Virus record (IMG/VR): IMGVR_UViG_3300030110_002924
Span: 1-29,816 of that record
DNA length: 29,816 nucleotides
Strand: one strand, 5' to 3'
Origin: a virus
How positions within the stretch are numbered: the stretch's first letter is position 1; the number at the start of each line of letters is the position of its first letter. A program made the translations under genes and the position numbers. This document shows positions 1 to 26,113 of the stretch, piece by piece. The notes beneath the pieces are model-generated. The model had not been told where the DNA came from. It searched no databases and saw only the letters and a list, made by a program, of their open reading frames with translations.

Positions 1-1
1 A

Positions 2-202
2 CAATTAAAATCTTTTCTCAAATTTACACCTAAGAATATGACGAATGGTATACACACCCAACCACCTCAAGCAATGCCCGATGATGTAAAGGTCAACGGT
101 AACAGCATTCAAGCATACAGAAACTACTACATACATTACAAAAGAAGTTTTGCAACATGGAAGAAAACTCAAATACCATCATGGTATAAGGAAGCAATAT
201 AA
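2..202 (+). CDS. Conserved phage protein, C-terminal part (often annotated pyrimidine dimer DNA glycosylase)
   Basis: An open frame enters from the left edge and stops with TAA at 200-202, giving the last 66 residues. The tail contains MPDDVKV, then AYRNYYIHYK, then FATWKK and PSWY. From memory, this pattern (MPDD..V, YRNYYI..K..FA.W, P.W) ends a phage protein family whose full members start near MNIF and carry a HVVKM motif, and which are often labelled pyrimidine dimer DNA glycosylase. The catalytic N-terminus lies outside the window, so the enzymatic label is weak. A 39-residue ORF starts two bases after the stop, suggesting one transcript. Confidence 0.7.
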   Translation, partial: QLKSFLKFTPKNMTNGIHTQPPQAMPDDVKVNGNSIQAYRNYYIHYKRSFATWKKTQIPSWYKEAI

Positions 203-204
203 CT

Positions 205-324
205 ATGGAAAAAATAAAAGAATTGATTCTCAATGTAAATAGAATCTTATGGGATAAGAAACTAGAAAATAAAGTTCAAGATTATCTGGATAATTTATTG
301 AAACGTATGCAAGATTATCACTAA
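205..324 (+). CDS. Small hypothetical protein, 39 aa
   Basis: The ATG at 205 follows the previous stop by two bases. AAGGAAG at 188-194 could serve as ribosome binding site at about 10 bases spacing. The product is a short charged helical peptide (MEKIKELILNV... ending KRMQDYH) with no Cys, no signal peptide and no membrane segment. I do not recognise a family. Its position and spacing suggest it is co-transcribed with the upstream gene. It is short enough that it may be chance, though the tight spacing argues for a real gene. Confidence 0.5.
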   Translation: MEKIKELILNVNRILWDKKLENKVQDYLDNLLKRMQDYH

Positions 325-336
325 ATACAAACATAG

Positions 337-418
337 ACTGGTAGATAACGAAAGGAAACTCTGTTAAGATGTATAGAAGAAACCTACCAGTATTTCAAAT
401 AGAATGTACGGAGTTTCT
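337..418 (+). ncRNA. Candidate pseudoknotted leader RNA
   Basis: Two helices interlock. The perfect 8-bp pair ACTGGTAG (337-344) with CTACCAGT (384-391) crosses an 11-bp pair between 354-364 and 408-418 (GGAAACTCTGT with ACGGAGTTTCT, two G-U pairs). The order A-B-A'-B' is that of an H-type pseudoknot, with connectors of 9, 19 and 16 nt. The region lies in the gap between two small ORFs, upstream of the membrane-peptide/HIT gene pair. A 19-codon ORF (369-428) overlaps it, and its possible AGGAA ribosome binding site (353-357) falls inside the second helix. This could be a cis-regulatory leader or attenuator. I do not recognise a known RNA family. Confidence 0.35.
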
Positions 419-429
419 GCAGAAGTAAT

Positions 430-558
430 ATGAAATATTTTCTTTACTCAAGTTTCGAAAAAATAAAAACGAGAAGTAAACACAAATTACTTCGAATAAA
501 ATTTCTACAAGGATTTCTAATTGGGGTTATTACATATTATTTCTTATTTGTTATCTAA
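430..558 (+). CDS. Small single-span membrane protein, 42 aa
   Basis: The ATG at 430 begins 42 codons ending with TAA at 556-558, directly abutting the ATG of the HIT gene at 559, which suggests translational coupling. The first half is basic (KIKTRSKHKLLRIK). The second half is one hydrophobic segment of about 18 residues (GFLIGVITYYFLFVI) running to the C-terminus. This predicts a tail-anchored inner-membrane peptide with a cytoplasmic basic N-terminus. The ribosome binding site is weak (AGAAG at 421-425). Family and function are unknown; expression may depend on the structured RNA just upstream. Confidence 0.55.
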   Translation: MKYFLYSSFEKIKTRSKHKLLRIKFLQGFLIGVITYYFLFVI

Positions 559-1044
559 ATGACTAAACAGAAACCACCCACGCCACCACCTACAGTAATG
601 AGAAAATCAGATGTTCCAGTCGAAGAGAACTCTTGTATCTTTTGTGATTATAAAGAAGAGGATATATTAATGCCTGAACTTACGTTTGGTATAAATTTAA
701 TTTCTGAAATTGCATATTGTATTCTTGATAAGTATCCAGTTACGAAAGGACATACTCTTATAATTCCAAAACGACATGTAGAATTTATATCAGAATTATC
801 TTTTATTGAAATGCAATATATCTTTCTTCTAGCAAAACACAGAATACCAGAAGCAGAAAAAGAATTCGAAGATATTACTGGTTGGAATTTTGGAGTGAAT
901 CAAGGAGAATCAGCAGGACAAACAATATCACATCTGCATTTTCATTTGATTCCACGTAGAAAGAATGATGTAATAAATCCAATCGGTGGAATTCGAAATG
1001 TAATTCCCAACAAAGGCGACTACAGAACGCTTGCCAATTCTTAA
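559..1044 (+). CDS. HIT-family nucleotide hydrolase/transferase
   Basis: This 161-residue protein has the HIT signature near its C-terminus: HLHFHL with His125, His127 and His129, preceded by GESAGQTISH and followed by IPRR. The motif forms the nucleotide-phosphate binding site, and the central His is the usual nucleophile. An N-terminal CIFC (residues 26-29) resembles the first Cys pair of zinc-binding HIT proteins. The first about 20 residues are Pro-rich. HIT enzymes cleave nucleoside phosphoramidates, dinucleoside polyphosphates or adenylylated substrates; the phage substrate is unknown. The ending GGIRNVIPNKGDY resembles phage HIT proteins as I recall them. The gene abuts the upstream small membrane ORF, and its 3' end contains the -35 element of the next promoter. 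Confidence 0.93.
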   Translation: MTKQKPPTPPPTVMRKSDVPVEENSCIFCDYKEEDILMPELTFGINLISEIAYCILDKYPVTKGHTLIIPKRHVEFISELSFIEMQYIFLLAKHRIPEAEKEFEDITGWNFGVNQGESAGQTISHLHFHLIPRRKNDVINPIGGIRNVIPNKGDYRTLANS

Positions 1045-1059
1045 AGATTCAGTTATAAT
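1031..1059 (+). promoter_or_regulatory. Sigma70-type promoter, copy 1
   Basis: TTGCCA (1031-1036), 17-base spacer, TATAAT (1054-1059). The -35 lies inside the last codons of the HIT gene. It would drive the ParB-like gene with an untranslated leader of about 94 bases. The element is the same as at 2179-2207. Confidence 0.75.
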
Positions 1060-1107
1060 ATTAGAATACAATTAAAGGTTTAATACTTTAATAGTAAATT
1101 TAATGAA

Positions 1108-1140
1108 TAGATGAGTTTGCCAATAGGCTGAAACTATCTA
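1108..1140 (+). promoter_or_regulatory. Leader hairpin before the ParB-like gene
   Basis: Stem TAGAT / AGTTT / GCC pairs with GGC / AAACT / ATCTA (13 bp), with a bulged G on one side, a bulged TG on the other, and an AATA loop. It ends six bases before the AAGGAG ribosome binding site (1146-1151) of the ORF at 1160. There is no U-tract, so it looks like a 5'-UTR regulatory or stabilising element rather than a terminator. Confidence 0.45.
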
Positions 1141-1159
1141 CTCAAAAGGAGAAAGACAA

Positions 1160-2134
1160 ATGATTAAAGAGCTAAAAAAGGTTATGTACGAGATTGATTT
1201 AAATCTTGTACCACAACCTAGTTTCGATACATTGCCATCAGTTAAAGTAAATGGTACTATCAAATTAAATTTTGATAACATTTACATTGATGATGATGAA
1301 AATAATCTTATACGAGAGCATGGCATTACGCCAGCTCATGTTGAAGATTTGAAACAATCATTTTCACAAGGCGTTGATTTAAATCAACCCCCACCTTGTG
1401 TTGTAAAACGACAAGCAACACCCAGTATTCCAAAAGACTATGAATTAGTTTTCGGATATGGGCGTTCAATGGCGTTAATTGGTCTAGGTCAAAAAGAATG
1501 GTACTTCACCGACATTAGTGTTGATGAAGATTCTATTGATGATGTTAGAGCGATTGAAAATGAACCTTTACCTAAACTTTGTAACTCAGAACAAGACTTA
1601 AAACACTTTCTGAGTAAAAAGATTAATAAAGGTACATTAAAAAATGATGAAAGTGCAATAAGACGAAAGTTAAATCAAGTTGCACCATATAGGAAACAAC
1701 AATCTAAAGATAAAATCATCCAATGGGTGCTTGAAGATTGTAGTACGCCTATGAAATATGCATTTTATGATTTAGCTAAATGTCAATTATGGTTAGACAA
1801 TAATTCTCAAAGTAACTATTTTATTCATGGTAACTTAGATGTTGAAAAAAACATGTACGGTCACCTAGTAAAAGAAGGTTATCAATACCGATTTGTTGTG
1901 AATGCCATTAGACAGTTTGTTAAAGATGGTAGACATTCATATTGCCTAGCGCATATGGGTGCACCAACTAATGCATCTTCAATAGAAGATAAAAGAATTA
2001 AGTTTACGACTGAACTTAACTCTATATTAAACGCTTTTCAATCGTGTGGTATGAATACAGATTTTATTCATGTCATGGGCGCTTTACCCCAACAAAAAGG
2101 TAAAGAAAATTGGAAACAGTTAATAAAAATTTAA
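1160..2134 (+). CDS. ParB/Srx-like (ParB N-terminal domain) protein
   Basis: This is a 324-residue protein with a good AAGGAG ribosome binding site eight bases before the ATG. Residues about 56-118 resemble a ParB N-terminal domain: a helix that would place the protein relative to a list of sites (GITPAHVEDLKQSF), a PPPCVV strand, then FGYGRSMALIGLGQ at the position of the ParB 'GxRRxxA...G' box, followed by a strand WYFTDI. A canonical double-Arg box is not present. The remaining about 200 residues match nothing I recognise; they hold several Cys and His (CLAHMG, SCGM). Such phage proteins may bind DNA or nucleotides, or act as ParB-like nucleases. The gene has its own promoter, leader hairpin and downstream terminator, so it is a monocistronic unit. 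Function unproven. Confidence 0.65.
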   Translation: MIKELKKVMYEIDLNLVPQPSFDTLPSVKVNGTIKLNFDNIYIDDDENNLIREHGITPAHVEDLKQSFSQGVDLNQPPPCVVKRQATPSIPKDYELVFGYGRSMALIGLGQKEWYFTDISVDEDSIDDVRAIENEPLPKLCNSEQDLKHFLSKKINKGTLKNDESAIRRKLNQVAPYRKQQSKDKIIQWVLEDCSTPMKYAFYDLAKCQLWLDNNSQSNYFIHGNLDVEKNMYGHLVKEGYQYRFVVNAIRQFVKDGRHSYCLAHMGAPTNASSIEDKRIKFTTELNSILNAFQSCGMNTDFIHVMGALPQQKGKENWKQLIKI

Positions 2135-5053: not shown

Positions 5054-7138
5054 ATGTCAGTAACATTACAAATTAAAAGGTCAACTGGAACTGCAGCACC
5101 TAGTTCACTTGCAAACGGCGAATTAGCATATACGCAGGGTACTGGAACACAGGGTAATCTCGGAGATAGATTATTCATCGGAGATGGCTCAAGTGTTAAT
5201 GTAATAGGTGGACAATACTTTACAGATATGTTAGACCATGTTGCTGGTACTTTAACGGCATCTGGTGCTATTATTGTTGATTCTGACAAAAAACTTGATG
5301 AATTAATTGTAGATGATATTAACCTAAATGGTAAAGTCATAACCATGACTGGCTCAAGTAGTGATACCGCTACATTTACTGTTGGAACAAATGGTACTTT
5401 AGATATCGTTACAACTGATGATAACGCTGCCGCTGCTAATATTCAAATTACTGCTGATGGTACTGCTGAACTCGCAGGTACAACTGTTACACTAGATTCA
5501 TCTGGCGGAATTACTTTAGATGCTGATGGTGGAACAATTACATTCGCAGATGCTGGCTCCTCATTAGGTACAATAACTTCTGATGGGTATACTGGTAATG
5601 TTGTAGGTAATCTTACAGGTAATGTTACAGGTAATGCTTCTGGAACTGCCGCTACTGTAACTGGTGCCGCTCAAACGAATATAACTTCTTTAGGAACTTT
5701 AACTGCATTAACTGTAGATGATGTCGCTGTAAATGGTAAAGTTATAACCATGACTGGTTCGAGTGGAGATACCGCTACACTTACTGCTGGAACAAATGGA
5801 ACTTTAGATATCACTACAACTGATACTGCCGCTGCTGCCGCTAATATTCAAATTACTGCAGATGGTACTGCTGAACTTGCTGGAACAACTGTTACTTTGG
5901 ATTCATCTGGTGGAATTACTTTGGACGCTGATGGTGGAACAATTACATTTGCTGATGCTGGTTCTTCATTAGGTACTATAACTTCAAGTGGATATACTGG
6001 TAATGTTGTAGGCGATGTAACTGGTGATGTAACTGGTACTGCTGATGTAGCTACTGTTGCAACAACTGTTACAATAACTGACAACGAATCTACAGACGAA
6101 GATAATGCTATTATATTTACTGCTGGGGGCGATGTTGATGGTGGTAATATTGGTCTTGAATCTGATGGAACATTAACATATAATCCAAGTACAGGTAAAG
6201 TAACTGCTACAGGATTTGTTGGAACATTAACAGGTAATGTTACAGGTAATGCTTCTGGAACTGCTGCTACTGTAACTGGTGCCGCTCAAACTGCGATAAC
6301 AAGTGTAGGTACATTAAATGGTCTTGCAATTGCTGGTAGTCAAACTATTACTATGGGAAGTAACAGAGTAACAAATGTTACCGACCCAACTTCTGCTCAA
6401 GATGCGGCTACTAAGGCATATGTTGATGCCGTAAAAACAGGACTTGATGTTAAAGATTCTGTTGTCGCTGCTTCTACACAAAATGGTACATTAAGTTCTG
6501 CATATACAAATGGCGATACACTTGATGGAGTTACACTTGCAACTAATGATAGGATTTTACTTAAAGACCAATCAACAGGCTCAGAAAATGGTATCTATAC
6601 TGTTAATTCATCTGGCGCTCCAACAAGAGCAACTGATTTTGATGCAAACGCAGAAGTTACTTCTGGTGCATTTACATTTGTTACTGAAGGTACTGTAAAT
6701 GGAGATTCTGGTTTTGTTCTAACAACAAATGATGACATTACAGTTGGTACGACTGCAATGACATGGGCGCAGTTTTCTGGTGCAGGTCAAATTACTGCTG
6801 GAGCTGGATTAGCAAAAAGTGGTAACACTTTATCTGTTGGAGTTGATGATAGTTCTATAGAAATCAATTCAGACGCATTACGAGTAAAAGCAAGTGGTGT
6901 TACAAATGCAATGTTAGCAGGTAGTATTGATTTGACTGCAAAAGTAACTGGTACATTACCTATTGGAAATGGTGGTACTGGTTTAACTGCTGCTGCTAAA
7001 GGAACTGTTATCGTTGCAAACTCTGCCAATACACTTAGTGCTTTAGATGGTGGTGGAAGTAATGATAGTATATTAGCATATACAGCATCTTCAGATACTA
7101 TCGCATGGGCAACTACTGTAGATGGCGGAACATTCTAA
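5054..7138 (+). CDS. Repetitive tail fibre protein, 694 aa
   Basis: The N-terminus (MSVTLQIKRSTGTAAPSSLANGE, then GDRLFIGDG) resembles the N-terminal domain of the major tropism determinant (Mtd) seen on many phage fibres. Residues about 86-340 hold two copies of a 135-residue beta-rich module (NGKVITMTG..., ITADGTAELAGTTVTLD, YTGNVVGN, then TSLGTLTALTVDD). From about residue 452, TKAYVDAV and KDSVVAAST begin a common fibre module with ENGIYTV and TRATDFD. GNGGTGLTAAAKGT follows near 634 and the protein ends DGGTF. It lacks the sugar-binding-like C-terminal domain of the next fibre, so it may be a proximal or trimer-forming fibre part. Ribosome binding site GGGAG, six bases upstream. Confidence 0.85.
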   Translation: MSVTLQIKRSTGTAAPSSLANGELAYTQGTGTQGNLGDRLFIGDGSSVNVIGGQYFTDMLDHVAGTLTASGAIIVDSDKKLDELIVDDINLNGKVITMTGSSSDTATFTVGTNGTLDIVTTDDNAAAANIQITADGTAELAGTTVTLDSSGGITLDADGGTITFADAGSSLGTITSDGYTGNVVGNLTGNVTGNASGTAATVTGAAQTNITSLGTLTALTVDDVAVNGKVITMTGSSGDTATLTAGTNGTLDITTTDTAAAAANIQITADGTAELAGTTVTLDSSGGITLDADGGTITFADAGSSLGTITSSGYTGNVVGDVTGDVTGTADVATVATTVTITDNESTDEDNAIIFTAGGDVDGGNIGLESDGTLTYNPSTGKVTATGFVGTLTGNVTGNASGTAATVTGAAQTAITSVGTLNGLAIAGSQTITMGSNRVTNVTDPTSAQDAATKAYVDAVKTGLDVKDSVVAASTQNGTLSSAYTNGDTLDGVTLATNDRILLKDQSTGSENGIYTVNSSGAPTRATDFDANAEVTSGAFTFVTEGTVNGDSGFVLTTNDDITVGTTAMTWAQFSGAGQITAGAGLAKSGNTLSVGVDDSSIEINSDALRVKASGVTNAMLAGSIDLTAKVTGTLPIGNGGTGLTAAAKGTVIVANSANTLSALDGGGSNDSILAYTASSDTIAWATTVDGGTF
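5309..6060 (+). repeat. Two tandem copies of a 405-bp fibre module
   Basis: Copy 1 runs 5309-5713 and copy 2 from 5714 to about 6060. Proteins are almost identical (ITADGTAELAGTTVTLDSSG, then YTGNVVG), while the DNA differs at many third positions. The same module appears three times in the next fibre gene. Confidence 0.8.
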
Positions 7139-7147
7139 TACAAGTTT

Positions 7148-7155
7148 AATAAATA
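7148..7155 (+). promoter_or_regulatory. T4-type late promoter (variant AATAAATA)
   Basis: AATAAATA occurs ten bases after the stop of the 694-residue fibre gene. It leaves a leader of about 31 bases with AAGGAGAG before the ATG at 7192. Confidence 0.5.
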
Positions 7156-7191
7156 ATGTTATAATATGAGAATAAAGGAGAGTTGACTTAA

Positions 7192-10100
7192 ATGGCAATT
7201 GTAATAAAACCTAAAAGGTCTGAAACTGCTGATAGTGCTCCAGGCACTTCCGATATAGTTGATGGCGAAATTGCAGTTAATATTGCCGATAAAAAAATAT
7301 ACATTAGACATTCAGATGATACTATTGTTACTTTATCTGATGGTGCTAATTTAACTTCTGGTTCTACCTCTACTATAGATGCAACTACTGATATTATACT
7401 TGATGCTGATGGTGGTGACATATTCTTTAAAGATGGTGGAACTACTTTTGGTAGTGCAACAAATACATCTGGAAATTTAATCGTTAAATCTGGGACTACT
7501 ACTGCACTTACTTTTAGTGGTGCAAACGTAACTGCTGCTGGAACAATTGATTCTGGTGCAATTACTTCTACTGGTGTTGTAACTGGAACAGGATTTACAA
7601 TTGGTAGTGCCGCTATTAATGAAACAGAATTAGAAATAATAGATGGCGCAACAGTAACTACAACTGAATTGAATTTATTAGATGGTGGAACTTCTGTCGG
7701 CGATTCTATAACTATTGCTGATGCAGATGGATTCATAGTAAATGATAATGGAACTATGAAAAGTATTCCTGCTTCAGATATAAAAACTTACGCTGGTGGT
7801 AGCGCCCCTGCTGCTGATGATATCGGTACAGGTGATGCTGCTGTTAATATAACTACTTCAAGTGGAAATATTACAATTGATGCCGCTGCTAACAATTCAG
7901 ATATAATATTTAAAGGAACTGATGCTAGTTCAGATATTACCATGTTAACTCTTGATGGTAGTGAAGCAGGTGCTGCTACGTTTAATAGTGCAATTACTGG
8001 TGGTGGATTACTTACAACTGGTGGTAACATAGTTATACCTAATGCAGGTAATATAGGAAGTGCTGGTGATACAGATGCGATTGCGATTGCATCTGATGGT
8101 GTTGTAACATTTAGTCAAAATCCTGTTGGTACATTAGCAACTGCCGCTCAAACAAATATAACTTCTTTAGGAACTCTTACTGCCTTAACAGTAGATGATG
8201 TTAATATAAATGGTAAGGTTATAACCATGACTGGTTCGAGTAGTGATACTGCTGTATTCACCGCTGGAACAAATGGAACTTTATCAATTGTAACAACTGA
8301 TGATGCCGCTGCTGCCGCTAATATTCAAATTACTGCAGATGGTACTGCTGAACTTGCTGGTACAACTGTTACATTAGACTCTAGTGGTGGAATTACTTTA
8401 GACGCTGATAATGGAACAATTACATTCGCAGATGCTGGTTCTTCATTGGGTACTATAACTTCAGATGGATATACTGGTAATGTTGTGGGCAATGTAACAG
8501 GTAATGTTACAGGTAATACTTCTGGAACTGCTGCAACTGTAACTGGTGCTGCCCAAACAAACATAACTTCTTTGGGAACTTTAACTGCACTAACTGTTGA
8601 TGATGTTAATATAAATGGTAAGGTTATAACCATGACTGGCTCAAGTAGTGATACTGCTGTATTTACTGCTGGAACAAATGGAACTTTATCAATTGTTACA
8701 ACTGATGATTCAGCGGCCGCTGCTAACATTCAAATTACTGCAGATGGTACAGCAGAACTTGCAGGAACAACTGTTACTTTAGATTCATCTGGTGGTATAA
8801 CATTAGATGCTGATAATGGAACAATTACATTTGCTGATGCTGGCTCTTCATTGGGTACTATAACCTCAGATGGATATACTGGTAATGTCGTAGGTAATGT
8901 TACAGGTAATACTTCTGGAACTGCTGCAACTGTAACTGGTGCTGCTCAAACAAATATTACTTCTCTAGGAACTCTTACTGCATTAACTGTAGATGATGTT
9001 GCGATAAATGGTAAAGTTATGACCATGACTGGCTCAAGCAGTGATACTGCTGTATTTACTGTTGGGACAAATGGAACTTTATCAATTGTTACAACTGATG
9101 ATGCCGCTGCTGCCGCTAATATTACAATTACTGCTGATGGAACTTTCGAAGCAGATGGTACAACTGTTACTTTAGATTCTGGTGGAGATATCGTATTAGA
9201 TGCTGATGGTGGAGATGTATTCTTCAAAGATGGTGGAACTACTTTTGGTAGTGCAACGAACACATCTGGTAACTTAATAGTTAAATCAGGCACAACAACT
9301 GCACTTACTTTTAGTGGTGCAAATGTAACTGCCGCAGGAACAATTGATTCTGGTGCGATAACTTCTACTGGTGTTGTAACTGGTACAGGATTCACAATTG
9401 GTAGCGCTGCTATTAACGAAACAGAATTAGAAATAATTGATGGTGCAACAGTAACTACAACAGAATTAAACTTGTTAGATGGTGGAACTGCTGTTGGTGA
9501 TTCAATCACTATTGCTGACGCAGATGGATTTATAGTAAACGATAATGGGACTATGAAAAGTATTCCTGCTTCAGATGTAAAAACTTATGCTGGTGGTAAT
9601 CCAGCTGCTGATGATATTGCAACTGGTGATGCCGCTGTTACTATAACTACTTCATCTGGAAATATTACAATAGATGCTGCCGCTAATAATTCAGATATAA
9701 TCTTTAAAGGAACTGATGCTTCAAGTGATATCACTATGTTAACTCTTGATGGTAGTGAAGCAGGTGCTGCAACTTTTAATAGTGCAATCACAGGTGGTGG
9801 ATTATTAACAACTGGTGGTAATATAGTTATTCCAGATGCTGGTACTATAGGTAGTGCATCAGATACAGACGCAATCGCAATAGGCTCAGATGGTGATGTT
9901 ACACTAACACAAGATTTAGAATTACAACACGATGGTGCTATATTATCTTTTGGTGCAAATGATGAAGTTACATTAACTCATGTACATGATACAGGAATAT
10001 TACTTAACTCAACAAATGTAATTCAATTTAATGACGCTTCACAAAATATAGGTGCACCAAGTAATGCAATTTTAGATATTAACGCAACAGATGAAATAGA

Positions 10101-11490
10101 ATTAAATGCTACACTTGTAGATGTAAATGCCAACTTAGATGTATCTGGAACTTATACTGGTGGTGGTACAATGACTACTGGTGGAAATATAGTTATTCCA
10201 GATGCAGGTAATATAGGTAGTGCTAGTGATACTGACGCAATCGCAATTGCATCTGATGGTGTTGTAACATTTAGTCAAGTTCCAGTTCTTCCAGATAATA
10301 CAGTTTCAACTGGTGACATACAAGGTGATGCTATTACCGAAGCAAAGATTGCAGATGATGCCGTTGAAAGCGAACACCTAAACAATAATGTTATATCTGG
10401 TCAAACAGAAATTAGTTCTGGACTTGCTGATGCAGATGAGTTACTTTATTCAGATGCTGGTACATTAAAGAAAGTAGGACTAGATACATTAACAACCCAT
10501 GTAGCAAGTGGAGTTACTAAACCCGCTACTTACAATGGATTAATAAATGGAGCTTTCACATGTTGGCAAAGAGGAACAGCATTTAGGTCTGGAGATAATA
10601 ATGATGACACTTGTACAGCAAGTAGATGGGTACTTCTATCAGATGGAAATGATATTGTTGATGTTGTTCGTTCTGATGGGGATGTAGATACTTCTCGTTA
10701 TGCTCTCGGATTAGATGTAGAAACAGTAGATAAAAAATTTGGTGTAGTACAAATAATAGAAAATATAAACTGTGGGCAACTTGGAGCTAGGGGAACTACT
10801 CCTGTAAGTCTTTCCTTTAAAGCAAAGGTTGCTGGTAGTGGAAAACTGGATAACGTAAAAGCTGCAGTAATATCATGGACTGGAACAGCAGATAGTGTAA
10901 CAAGTGATTGTGTAAATGCTTGGAACGCAGAAGGCACCGACCCAGGCTTAGCAACTAACTGGACTTATGAAAACACACCTGCTAATTTAAATGTAACAAC
11001 TTCATGGGTTAGATATAAAATAGAAAATATATCAATGGATACTTCTAGTATTAATAATGTTGCAGTATTTATTTGGTCGGATGTAACAGATACAAATGCA
11101 GGTGATTTCTTATATATTACAGATGTACAGTTAGAACCTGGCGAAACAGCAAATCCTTTCACACGAGAAACTGCAGGTGACACATTAGCACAATGTCAAA
11201 GATATTATCATAGAGGTATGTATGCTTTTATGTCATCAAGTGCTACAACACTTATATATAATATCAACTTCCCAGTAGAGATGAGAACAACTCCAACAGT
11301 ATCACATGAGTATGCTGAGGGTGGAACAGCTAATGATATATATAATATAGCTACTGCTGCTACGCCAACTTTTGTTCCTAATGGTAGATTTGCAAACCCA
11401 TATGGATTGAGGTTTGCTTATGATTTTGATGCAGGTCTTACAGCGGATGATGGATACCAAGCTTATTTTTACTTTGAGGCGGAGTTATAA
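7192..11490 (+). CDS. Large repetitive tail fibre with C-terminal receptor-binding-like domain, 1432 aa
   Basis: The N-terminus (MAIVIKPKRSETADSAPGTS, then DGEIAVNIADKKIYIR) is Mtd-like, as in the previous fibre. The shaft is built from duplicated modules. A block of about 237 residues (LDADGGDIFFKDGG through GGNIVIPNAGNIGSA) occurs at about residues 67-303 and 665-901, and a 131-135-residue module is repeated three times between them (334-665). A further domain (LSFGANDEVTLTH, LDINATDEIELNATLVD) follows. From about residue 1115 a non-repetitive domain begins with NGLINGAFTCWQRGTAF and includes DKKFGVVQIIENINC, TYENTPANLN and DVQLEPGETANPF, then QCQRYYHRGM. This resembles carbohydrate-binding-like tips of phage fibres. 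Its nearest relative here is the fibre at 24113. Likely a host-recognition fibre. Confidence 0.88.
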   Translation: MAIVIKPKRSETADSAPGTSDIVDGEIAVNIADKKIYIRHSDDTIVTLSDGANLTSGSTSTIDATTDIILDADGGDIFFKDGGTTFGSATNTSGNLIVKSGTTTALTFSGANVTAAGTIDSGAITSTGVVTGTGFTIGSAAINETELEIIDGATVTTTELNLLDGGTSVGDSITIADADGFIVNDNGTMKSIPASDIKTYAGGSAPAADDIGTGDAAVNITTSSGNITIDAAANNSDIIFKGTDASSDITMLTLDGSEAGAATFNSAITGGGLLTTGGNIVIPNAGNIGSAGDTDAIAIASDGVVTFSQNPVGTLATAAQTNITSLGTLTALTVDDVNINGKVITMTGSSSDTAVFTAGTNGTLSIVTTDDAAAAANIQITADGTAELAGTTVTLDSSGGITLDADNGTITFADAGSSLGTITSDGYTGNVVGNVTGNVTGNTSGTAATVTGAAQTNITSLGTLTALTVDDVNINGKVITMTGSSSDTAVFTAGTNGTLSIVTTDDSAAAANIQITADGTAELAGTTVTLDSSGGITLDADNGTITFADAGSSLGTITSDGYTGNVVGNVTGNTSGTAATVTGAAQTNITSLGTLTALTVDDVAINGKVMTMTGSSSDTAVFTVGTNGTLSIVTTDDAAAAANITITADGTFEADGTTVTLDSGGDIVLDADGGDVFFKDGGTTFGSATNTSGNLIVKSGTTTALTFSGANVTAAGTIDSGAITSTGVVTGTGFTIGSAAINETELEIIDGATVTTTELNLLDGGTAVGDSITIADADGFIVNDNGTMKSIPASDVKTYAGGNPAADDIATGDAAVTITTSSGNITIDAAANNSDIIFKGTDASSDITMLTLDGSEAGAATFNSAITGGGLLTTGGNIVIPDAGTIGSASDTDAIAIGSDGDVTLTQDLELQHDGAILSFGANDEVTLTHVHDTGILLNSTNVIQFNDASQNIGAPSNAILDINATDEIELNATLVDVNANLDVSGTYTGGGTMTTGGNIVIPDAGNIGSASDTDAIAIASDGVVTFSQVPVLPDNTVSTGDIQGDAITEAKIADDAVESEHLNNNVISGQTEISSGLADADELLYSDAGTLKKVGLDTLTTHVASGVTKPATYNGLINGAFTCWQRGTAFRSGDNNDDTCTASRWVLLSDGNDIVDVVRSDGDVDTSRYALGLDVETVDKKFGVVQIIENINCGQLGARGTTPVSLSFKAKVAGSGKLDNVKAAVISWTGTADSVTSDCVNAWNAEGTDPGLATNWTYENTPANLNVTTSWVRYKIENISMDTSSINNVAVFIWSDVTDTNAGDFLYITDVQLEPGETANPFTRETAGDTLAQCQRYYHRGMYAFMSSSATTLIYNINFPVEMRTTPTVSHEYAEGGTANDIYNIATAATPTFVPNGRFANPYGLRFAYDFDAGLTADDGYQAYFYFEAEL
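7390..8100 (+). repeat. Fibre block, copy 1 (about 710 bp)
   Basis: This stretch encodes the block from DIILDADGG to IPNAGNIGSAGDTDAIAIA. It is repeated at 9184-9894 with almost the same protein (one residue indel at GGSAPAADD versus GGNPAADD) but scattered synonymous DNA changes. Part of it recurs in the fibre gene at 24313-24590. Confidence 0.8.
8191..9180 (+). repeat. Three tandem copies of the fibre module
   Basis: Units begin at 8191, 8596 and 8989, giving periods of 405 and 393 bp; the 12-bp difference is one GNVT element. The third unit is partial and passes into the next block near 9180. The module is the same as in the fibre gene at 5054. Confidence 0.8.
9184..9894 (+). repeat. Fibre block, copy 2
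   Basis: This is the second copy of the block at 7390-8100, offset by about 1794 bases. The three-unit tandem module lies between the two copies, so recombination between the copies would delete it in frame. Confidence 0.8.
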
Positions 11491-24112: not shown

Positions 24113-26113
24113 ATGGCAACAAGAAATACACCCACAACATCTACACTAGAAGAATGGAGAGTTGAGTTTAATGAACTTGCAACTGACGTAGGTAATGTTA
24201 CTGGAAGTTCACAAGGTGACCAACTTACAACTTCAGCAACAGATATAGTTGGTGCGATTAATGAATTAGAAACAAATTTTAATGCTTTAGTCGCTAGTTC
24301 ACAGACAGCTGCTGATAATATAACTACTGGTGATGCTGCTGTTAACATAACTACTTCATCTGGAAATATTACAATAGATGCCGCTGCTAACAATACAGAT
24401 ATAATATTTAAAGGAACAGATGCTTCTGCCGATATCACTATGTTAACTCTTGATGGAAGTGAAGCAGGAGCCGCTACATTTAATAGTGCAATTACTGGTG
24501 GCGGATTATTAACAACTGGTGGAAATATAGTTATACCAGATGCAGGTAACATAGGTAGTGCATCAGATACAAATGCAATTACAATTAGTTCTGGTGGTGT
24601 TGTTGCAGTTACAGCAACTACTGCTTCAACTAACTCAACAACTGGTGCATTAACAGTTGGAGGCGGTGCAGGTGTCGCTGCTGATTTATCGGTTGGAGAT
24701 GATTTACGATTAATCTCTGATTCTGCTGTATTAAGTTTTGGTGCAGATAGTGATACAACACTAACACATACAGATGGTAGTGGACTAACACTTAACTCAA
24801 CAAACAAATTGATGTTCAATGATGCTAGTCAATTTATACAAGGTGCTAGTGCAACAGTATTAGATATTAACGCAACAGATGAAATAGAATTAAACGCAAC
24901 TTTGGTTGATGCTAATGCCAACTTAGATGTATCTGGAACTTATACTGGTGGTGGTTTAATGACTACTGGTGGTAACATAGTTATACCAGATGCAGGTAAC
25001 ATAGGTAGTGCAAGTGATACCGATGCAATCGCAATTGCATCTACTGGTATTGTAACTTTTAGTCAAAACCCAGTTCGTACTGGTGCAGTAAACAACATGA
25101 TTATAAATGGTGACATGGTTGTGGCACAAAGAGGTGCTACAATAACAGATGCTCAAGTCGATAGTGTATCTACAACAACTAACGCAGATGACAGTTACAC
25201 ACTAGATAGATGGATACTATTGTCAGATGGAAATAACATTGTAGATGTAAAACAATCAGATACTTCACCTATCGATGGCTCTGCTAAGACTATACAACTT
25301 GAAGTAGAAACAGCAGATAAAAAATTTGGAATAGTACAGATAATAGAAAATATTAATTGTCATGATGCAATTGGGACTAGTGGCAGAGTAAGTCTTTCGT
25401 TTAAAATGAAAGCATCTGATGCTAGTATAGACGATGTAAGAGCAGCGGTAGTATCATGGAGTGGTACAGCAGATTCAGTAACAAGTGATATAGTAAGTAA
25501 CTGGCAGGCAGAAGGAACTAATCCAACATTAATTACTAATGCTACATATGAAAATACACCTGCTAATTTAAATCCTACAACATCATTTGCAGAATACAAA
25601 ATAGAAAACATATTAGTAGATACTAGTTCTACAGGAAACCTATTAGTCTTTATCTGGTCAGGAGTTACTGACGTAGAAGTAGATGATAGTTTGTTTATTA
25701 CAGATGTGCAACTAGAAACTGGTGTAGCTGCAAATCCATTTGTAAGAAAACCTATACAACAAACTATGCTTGATTGTGAAAGATATTATGAAACAAGTAT
25801 GGCATGGGGAGAAGATTCACAATTTCAAGGTCAACAAGTAAAGTTTGGATGTGGTAGTGCAACTTATAATGCATCAACAGATGCAGCTCAAGGTAATAGA
25901 TTTAATACTCGTAAACGTACAACGCCTACTGTAACATTGTATCATCAAGACGGCACGTCAGGCGCTGTGTACACTATACACGATGCAGCTAAAATAACTG
26001 GAGTTGTAGCACAACACATAACCGATATGGGTTATTTGTTTGCAAATAAATCAAGTGGATTTAATTCTGGTATAGGATATTACTACGGACATATTGTGGA
26101 GGCAGAATTATAA
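24113..26113 (+). CDS. Tail fibre with C-terminal receptor-binding-like domain, 666 aa
   Basis: The N-terminus (TSTLEEWRVEFNELATDVGN, TDIVGAINELETNFNAL) is helical and differs from the Mtd-like starts of the first fibre locus, so it probably attaches elsewhere. Residues about 68-160 (ITTSSGNITIDAAANN, LLTTGGNIVIPDAG) and about 200-320 (VLSFGADSDTTLTH, VLDINATDEIELNATLVDA) are near copies of modules in the 1432-residue fibre. From about 327 (NNMIINGDMVVAQRG, then YTLDRWILLSDGNNIVDV, DKKFGIVQIIENINC, TYENTPANLN, DVQLETGVAANPFVR) it is paralogous to that fibre's tip domain, but the last about 100 residues (ERYYETSMAWGEDSQFQG...) diverge. It is likely a second host-recognition fibre. It shares the TAATG stop/start overlap with its companion gene. 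Confidence 0.88.
   Translation: MATRNTPTTSTLEEWRVEFNELATDVGNVTGSSQGDQLTTSATDIVGAINELETNFNALVASSQTAADNITTGDAAVNITTSSGNITIDAAANNTDIIFKGTDASADITMLTLDGSEAGAATFNSAITGGGLLTTGGNIVIPDAGNIGSASDTNAITISSGGVVAVTATTASTNSTTGALTVGGGAGVAADLSVGDDLRLISDSAVLSFGADSDTTLTHTDGSGLTLNSTNKLMFNDASQFIQGASATVLDINATDEIELNATLVDANANLDVSGTYTGGGLMTTGGNIVIPDAGNIGSASDTDAIAIASTGIVTFSQNPVRTGAVNNMIINGDMVVAQRGATITDAQVDSVSTTTNADDSYTLDRWILLSDGNNIVDVKQSDTSPIDGSAKTIQLEVETADKKFGIVQIIENINCHDAIGTSGRVSLSFKMKASDASIDDVRAAVVSWSGTADSVTSDIVSNWQAEGTNPTLITNATYENTPANLNPTTSFAEYKIENILVDTSSTGNLLVFIWSGVTDVEVDDSLFITDVQLETGVAANPFVRKPIQQTMLDCERYYETSMAWGEDSQFQGQQVKFGCGSATYNASTDAAQGNRFNTRKRTTPTVTLYHQDGTSGAVYTIHDAAKITGVVAQHITDMGYLFANKSSGFNSGIGYYYGHIVEAEL

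Follow-up and report, generated by a model that had tools for sequence, protein, structure and literature searches.

A candidate pseudoknot in the p42/HIT leader of a small clade of uncultivated T4-like phages

Background

In the parts of the literature cited here, the gene 32 translational operator of phages T4, T2 and RB69 is an H-type pseudoknot located in the mRNA leader, 5' of the Shine-Dalgarno sequence (PMC535899, PMC3014915). The T4 knot, as given in the same parts, is ~28 nt long and lies ~67 nt upstream of the AUG, is followed by UUAAA/UAAA repeats, overlaps the neighbouring reading frame segG with its 5' arm and controls the SSB gene (PMC535899, PMC3014915). A further feature of this operator is that it is bound by the phage SSB, with cooperative repression. 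Other structured leaders are known, at least from the cited part of their description: the Downstream-peptide RNA (RF01704) is a marine structured RNA found in the 5' UTR of short ORFs of 17-100 aa, and the manA and wcaG RNAs (RF01745, RF01761) are leader RNAs of T4-like marine phages (PMC2864571).

The element analysed here was found in an IMG/VR virus record of 29,816 bases, the whole of which is referred to below as the window. Like the gene 32 operator, as far as the cited accounts describe it, the element is a predicted pseudoknot 5' of a Shine-Dalgarno sequence in a leader of a T4-type phage. Unlike that operator, it is 82 nt long and ends 11 nt before the AUG, the intervening sequence (419-429, GCAGAAGTAAT) contains no UUAAA/UAAA repeats, and the genes that follow are p42, which codes for a small hydrophobic peptide of no family, and a HIT gene instead of an SSB gene. 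Two defining features, the UUAAA repeats and the SSB gene, are absent and the element is therefore not a member of the gene 32 operator class, which is nonetheless its closest working parallel on the features published in those accounts. The element resembles the Downstream-peptide RNA in being a predicted structured leader before a short ORF but differs from it in having no Rfam match; the manA and wcaG RNAs, as portrayed in the cited source, differ in the same way and in the genes that they precede. The element is best read as a clade-restricted leader pseudoknot with a predicted effect on p42 initiation, and it should be regarded as a modest candidate.

Genomic context of the element

Relatives of baseplate hub, wedge and head-closure genes of T4-like phages are present in the window, and the gene fragment at 2-202 (searched with the L013 copy as query) has relatives in Pelagibacter phage Mosig, Methylophilales phage Melnitz, cyanophages such as S-TIM5 and Caulobacter phage Cr30. 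The element sits in a 105-base gap (325-429) between p39 and p42 (Table 1). Non-coding gaps are few, with a total of 1401 nt in the window for the gene set used here. Neither p39 nor p42 matched a PHROG or Pfam family at E<=0.001. The stop codon of p42 directly adjoins the start codon of the HIT gene (TAAATG), and p39 is likely on the same transcript as the element. The unit formed by p39, the element, p42 and HIT stays intact among the contigs that carry it, while its upstream neighbours vary. No promoter-like site was found on the + strand of 325-429, and no terminator-like hairpin or site was found at the element in the window or in the diverged contig L016.

Table 1. Coordinates of the features of the element and its surroundings in the window
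Feature	Coordinates	Strand	Sequence	Remarks
p39	205..324	+	MEKIKEL...QDYH	39-aa ORF upstream of the element; function not assigned
P1 5' arm	337..344	+	ACUGGUAG	Sequence and helix search; six outer P1 pairs identical in 3/3 versions
P2 5' arm	354..364	+	GGAAACUCUGU	Sequence and helix search; 10/11 pairs kept in L016
Mini-ORF	369..428	+	MYRRNLPVFQIECTEFLQK	Probably incidental; frame kept in L009, not in L016
P1 3' arm	384..391	+	CUACCAGU	Sequence, helix search and comparison of versions
P2 3' arm	408..418	+	ACGGAGUUUCU	Sequence; G-U to A-U at 362-410 in L016
AGAAG	421..425	+		Likely Shine-Dalgarno of p42 (from sequence); L016 has AGGA there
p42	430..558	+		42-aa peptide; N-terminal half basic, C-terminal half hydrophobic
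HIT-domain protein	559..1044	+		Pfam PF01230, E 1.7e-17

Crossing helices and chance expectation

Two crossing helices of 8 and 11 bp had been proposed in an earlier sequence-only reading, and both of them, here named P1 and P2, were recovered from the sequence and by a helix search. The arms follow each other in the order 5'P1-5'P2-3'P1-3'P2 with loops of 9, 19 and 16 nt, P2 includes two G-U pairs (354-418 and 362-410), and its 3' arm ends 2 nt before the AGAAG motif of the window. The nested fold of the element was not unusual (z -0.39), which is to be expected of a fold that cannot hold P2 along with P1.

Crossing pairs of contiguous helices with a span of at most 100 nt were scored by stacking energy. 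With a score of -32.7, P1/P2 ranked first among the contiguous crossing pairs on either strand of the window, and the next-best pairs (-31.8 and -31.2) both lie inside coding sequence. Dinucleotide shuffles of one strand served as null: the score was reached in 1/3000 local shuffles (151 nt), in 7/1500 shuffles of the first 2500 nt, or ~0.005 per 2.5 kb, and in 58/300 shuffles of the whole window. The significance of P1/P2 thus depends on the choice of null, and by these counts the feature is notable for a non-coding gap, not for an after-the-fact search of 30 kb. This bears on the likeliest of the alternative explanations, namely that the crossing complementarity arose by chance in sequence kept for other reasons, such as recent common ancestry or its nature as leader or ribosome-binding sequence, and that there is no functional RNA. 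We consider this somewhat improbable, with a weight that is far from negligible. The frequency in whole-window shuffles and the similar scores of pairs within coding sequence favour it, whereas the location of the element in a non-coding gap, at the low frequency per 2.5 kb given above, argues against it.

Conservation among related contigs

The element is present in four other IMG/VR contigs. One copy (L002/L013) is identical to the window over 116 nt, another (L003/L009) shows 97.4% identity, a third (L005/L016) is the most divergent version, and the fourth contig (L004/L115) starts inside the element. There are thus three distinct full versions, which effectively amount to one informative comparison, that with L016. 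This version keeps 17 of the 19 pairs. In P2, the G-U pair 362-410 has become A-U and the end pair 354-418 is lost. In P1, the alignment retains 7 of the 8 pairs and places 5 extra nt between the sixth and the seventh, at the inner end, so that only 6 contiguous bp remain, and rival pairings of similar strength (GUUGGG/CCUAAC and GGUUG/CAACC) are available. A further insertion, of 29 nt, falls in the loop between the 5' arm of P2 and the 3' arm of P1. P2 ends no more than 2 nt before the likely Shine-Dalgarno of p42 in both the window and L016, though that sequence itself differs (AGAAG versus AGGA).

Substitutions between the window and L016 affect 3 of the 38 stem columns and 11 of the 44 loop columns (one-sided Fisher p 0.037). 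Uncompensated change at paired bases had been named as what would speak against the fold, and the outcome is mixed, as one of the three stem substitutions in L016 preserves its pair, turning G-U into A-U, and the other two disrupt end pairs. Several points from these comparisons speak against a functional RNA: no pair has changed on both sides among the three full versions, so that there is no true covariation; random substitution leaves 17 or more pairs standing in 7.7% of simulated cases, for what is a single diverged comparison; and the unpaired flanks are also conserved (11/12 and 10/12). Against the chance explanation, most arm columns hold although the element (68/82 identical, window versus L016) is less well conserved than the aligned segments, where identity is 0.90-0.93. 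Eight crossing pairs score -24 or better in the parts of the window (two segments) that align with L016, and P1/P2 is the best of these in either sequence.

Predicted role in p42 initiation

The reading that we favour, and to which we give an even chance, is that the element acts in cis as an H-type pseudoknot in the p42/HIT intercistronic leader of a small clade of uncultivated T4-like phages, where it would lower the initiation of p42 and thereby of HIT, the mini-ORF being incidental. A translational switch or attenuator had been suggested earlier. A translational role is plausible, since the knot is largely kept in L016 and lies just upstream of the likely p42 ribosome-binding site; the involvement of the mini-ORF did not hold up (see below). 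As the element ends ~2 nt before the likely Shine-Dalgarno of p42, it probably restrains initiation at this site, working along the lines of the T4 gene 32 operator without belonging to that class. The footprint of a bound 30S subunit extends some 20 nt upstream of the AUG and would overlap the 3' arm of P2, so that the folded knot should lower p42 initiation, and the effect would pass to HIT via the abutting TAAATG. The strength of repression might be set by a bound protein, by upstream ribosomes or by antisense pairing. If real, the element would give T4-like phages one more translation-initiation pseudoknot and could serve as a small, testable model.

A more specific form of this proposal, a new phage riboregulator in which a protein- or ligand-gated pseudoknot would govern both the small membrane peptide and the HIT nucleotide hydrolase, appears unlikely. 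If it held, T4-type phages would have two classes of leader pseudoknot, the gene 32 operator and this one.

The structure might instead serve mRNA processing or stability, either by shielding the p39 message at its 3' end or as an endonuclease site. Its position after one gene's stop codon and ahead of the following gene, likely in a polycistronic message, and a gap free of promoter-like (+ strand) and terminator-like sites are in keeping with such a function, which we nevertheless hold to be decidedly unlikely, the retained placement of P2 relative to the Shine-Dalgarno in L016 being a better fit to translation.

The mini-ORF

The sequence-only reading had further proposed that P2 switches or attenuates the translation of a 19-codon mini-ORF coupled to p42. 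This frame is present as described, with its end one base before the ATG at 430, and both the window and L009 (MYERNLPVFQIECTEFLQK) have it uninterrupted. The AGGAA motif assigned to it lies at 353-357, so that four of its five bases, not all, are inside P2, and its distance of 11 nt from the mini-ORF ATG is long for a Shine-Dalgarno sequence. In L016, this ATG starts another frame, of 20 codons (MDMTLTKNLTAMRATYQYCK), which runs into a UAG within the element; the frame that corresponds to the mini-ORF by homology lacks an ATG, and the AAGGAA of the window reads AACGAA. As frame, peptide and AGGAA motif are all gone from L016, the peptide is unlikely to be the point, the mini-ORF is probably incidental, and a switch acting on it is very improbable.

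Searches for known RNA families and further homologues

That no known riboswitch is recognisable in the element was borne out, as no Rfam family, riboswitches included, covers it: the covariance models, run on the whole window, gave nothing over 325-429 at gathering score, and at E<=10 none overlapped the element in window 1-1200 or in L016 1640-2120. The best Rfam hit was discarded: it is a PutA thermometer match within a coding region (115-186), with an E of 0.014 and a score far short of gathering. A tmRNA is annotated in the cultured relatives Mosig and Melnitz, and the element has no tmRNA match with ARAGORN or Rfam. The order of its helices resembles that of an HDV-like ribozyme, for which there was no Rfam match either. 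A stop-codon readthrough pseudoknot was also rejected, the TAA of p39 (322-324) being followed by an in-frame TAG (334-336) before P1.

No relative outside the clade was detected in INPHARED, GTDB, viral contigs or model searches. In INPHARED, window 1-1200 searched as DNA gave no match, p42 and p39 searched as proteins gave none at E<=1, and the element searched as DNA gave weak partial matches in 35 records (best E 0.3 among the best 20 of the 35), which were taken as chance. The p42 query was found in 0 of 134 GTDB stretches, and homologues of p39 in viral contigs belong to the same clade only. The 17-mer GAAACTCTGTTAAGATG occurs in 12 stretches of viral contigs, of which 3 are the element and 9 are unrelated by context; no new context with both arms appeared among the 137 matches listed in the viral-contig scan, in which the same contig is counted more than once. 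Relatives of the upstream phrog_624 gene in viral contigs were taken in for 80 of 102. A sequence model, and likewise a covariance model of P2, run on 84 sources returned the known clade only, other hits of the P2 model having E>=1.2; the three clade loci in the phrog_624 set (L145-L147) were omitted from these sources, as their contigs were already included as L013, L009 and L016.

Variation in the flanking regions

In the window (194-207) and in L002, p39 adjoins the upstream phrog_624 gene directly. In L016, these genes are separated by two additional ORFs (190 and 271 aa; 295-1666), which resemble, by eye from their sequence, a restriction endonuclease and a Dam-type methylase. The same contig carries perfect TTGACA-17-TATAAT promoter-like sites before p39 (1675-1703) and at the end of HIT (2578-2606), the former of which is missing from the window and L002.

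Compared with L013, the window has ~1.1 kb of extra sequence (1025-2135) with a 324-aa ORF (1160-2134) that matched no PHROG or Pfam family. This stretch is placed in the promoter region after HIT, with a TATAAT-type promoter-like sequence flanking both sides; the C-terminus of HIT is altered at it, and an inverted repeat (GGAGAGTTA/TAACTCTCC) lies 3' of the ORF. Its make-up suggests a cassette of promoter and gene that was inserted at a promoter, and mobile promoter/stem-loop cassettes of similar type occur in T4-type phages. Elsewhere in the window, long tail-fibre-like ORFs occupy 5054-11490 and 24113-26113, with repeated blocks such as TAAQTNITSLGTLTALTVDD shared within and between these genes.
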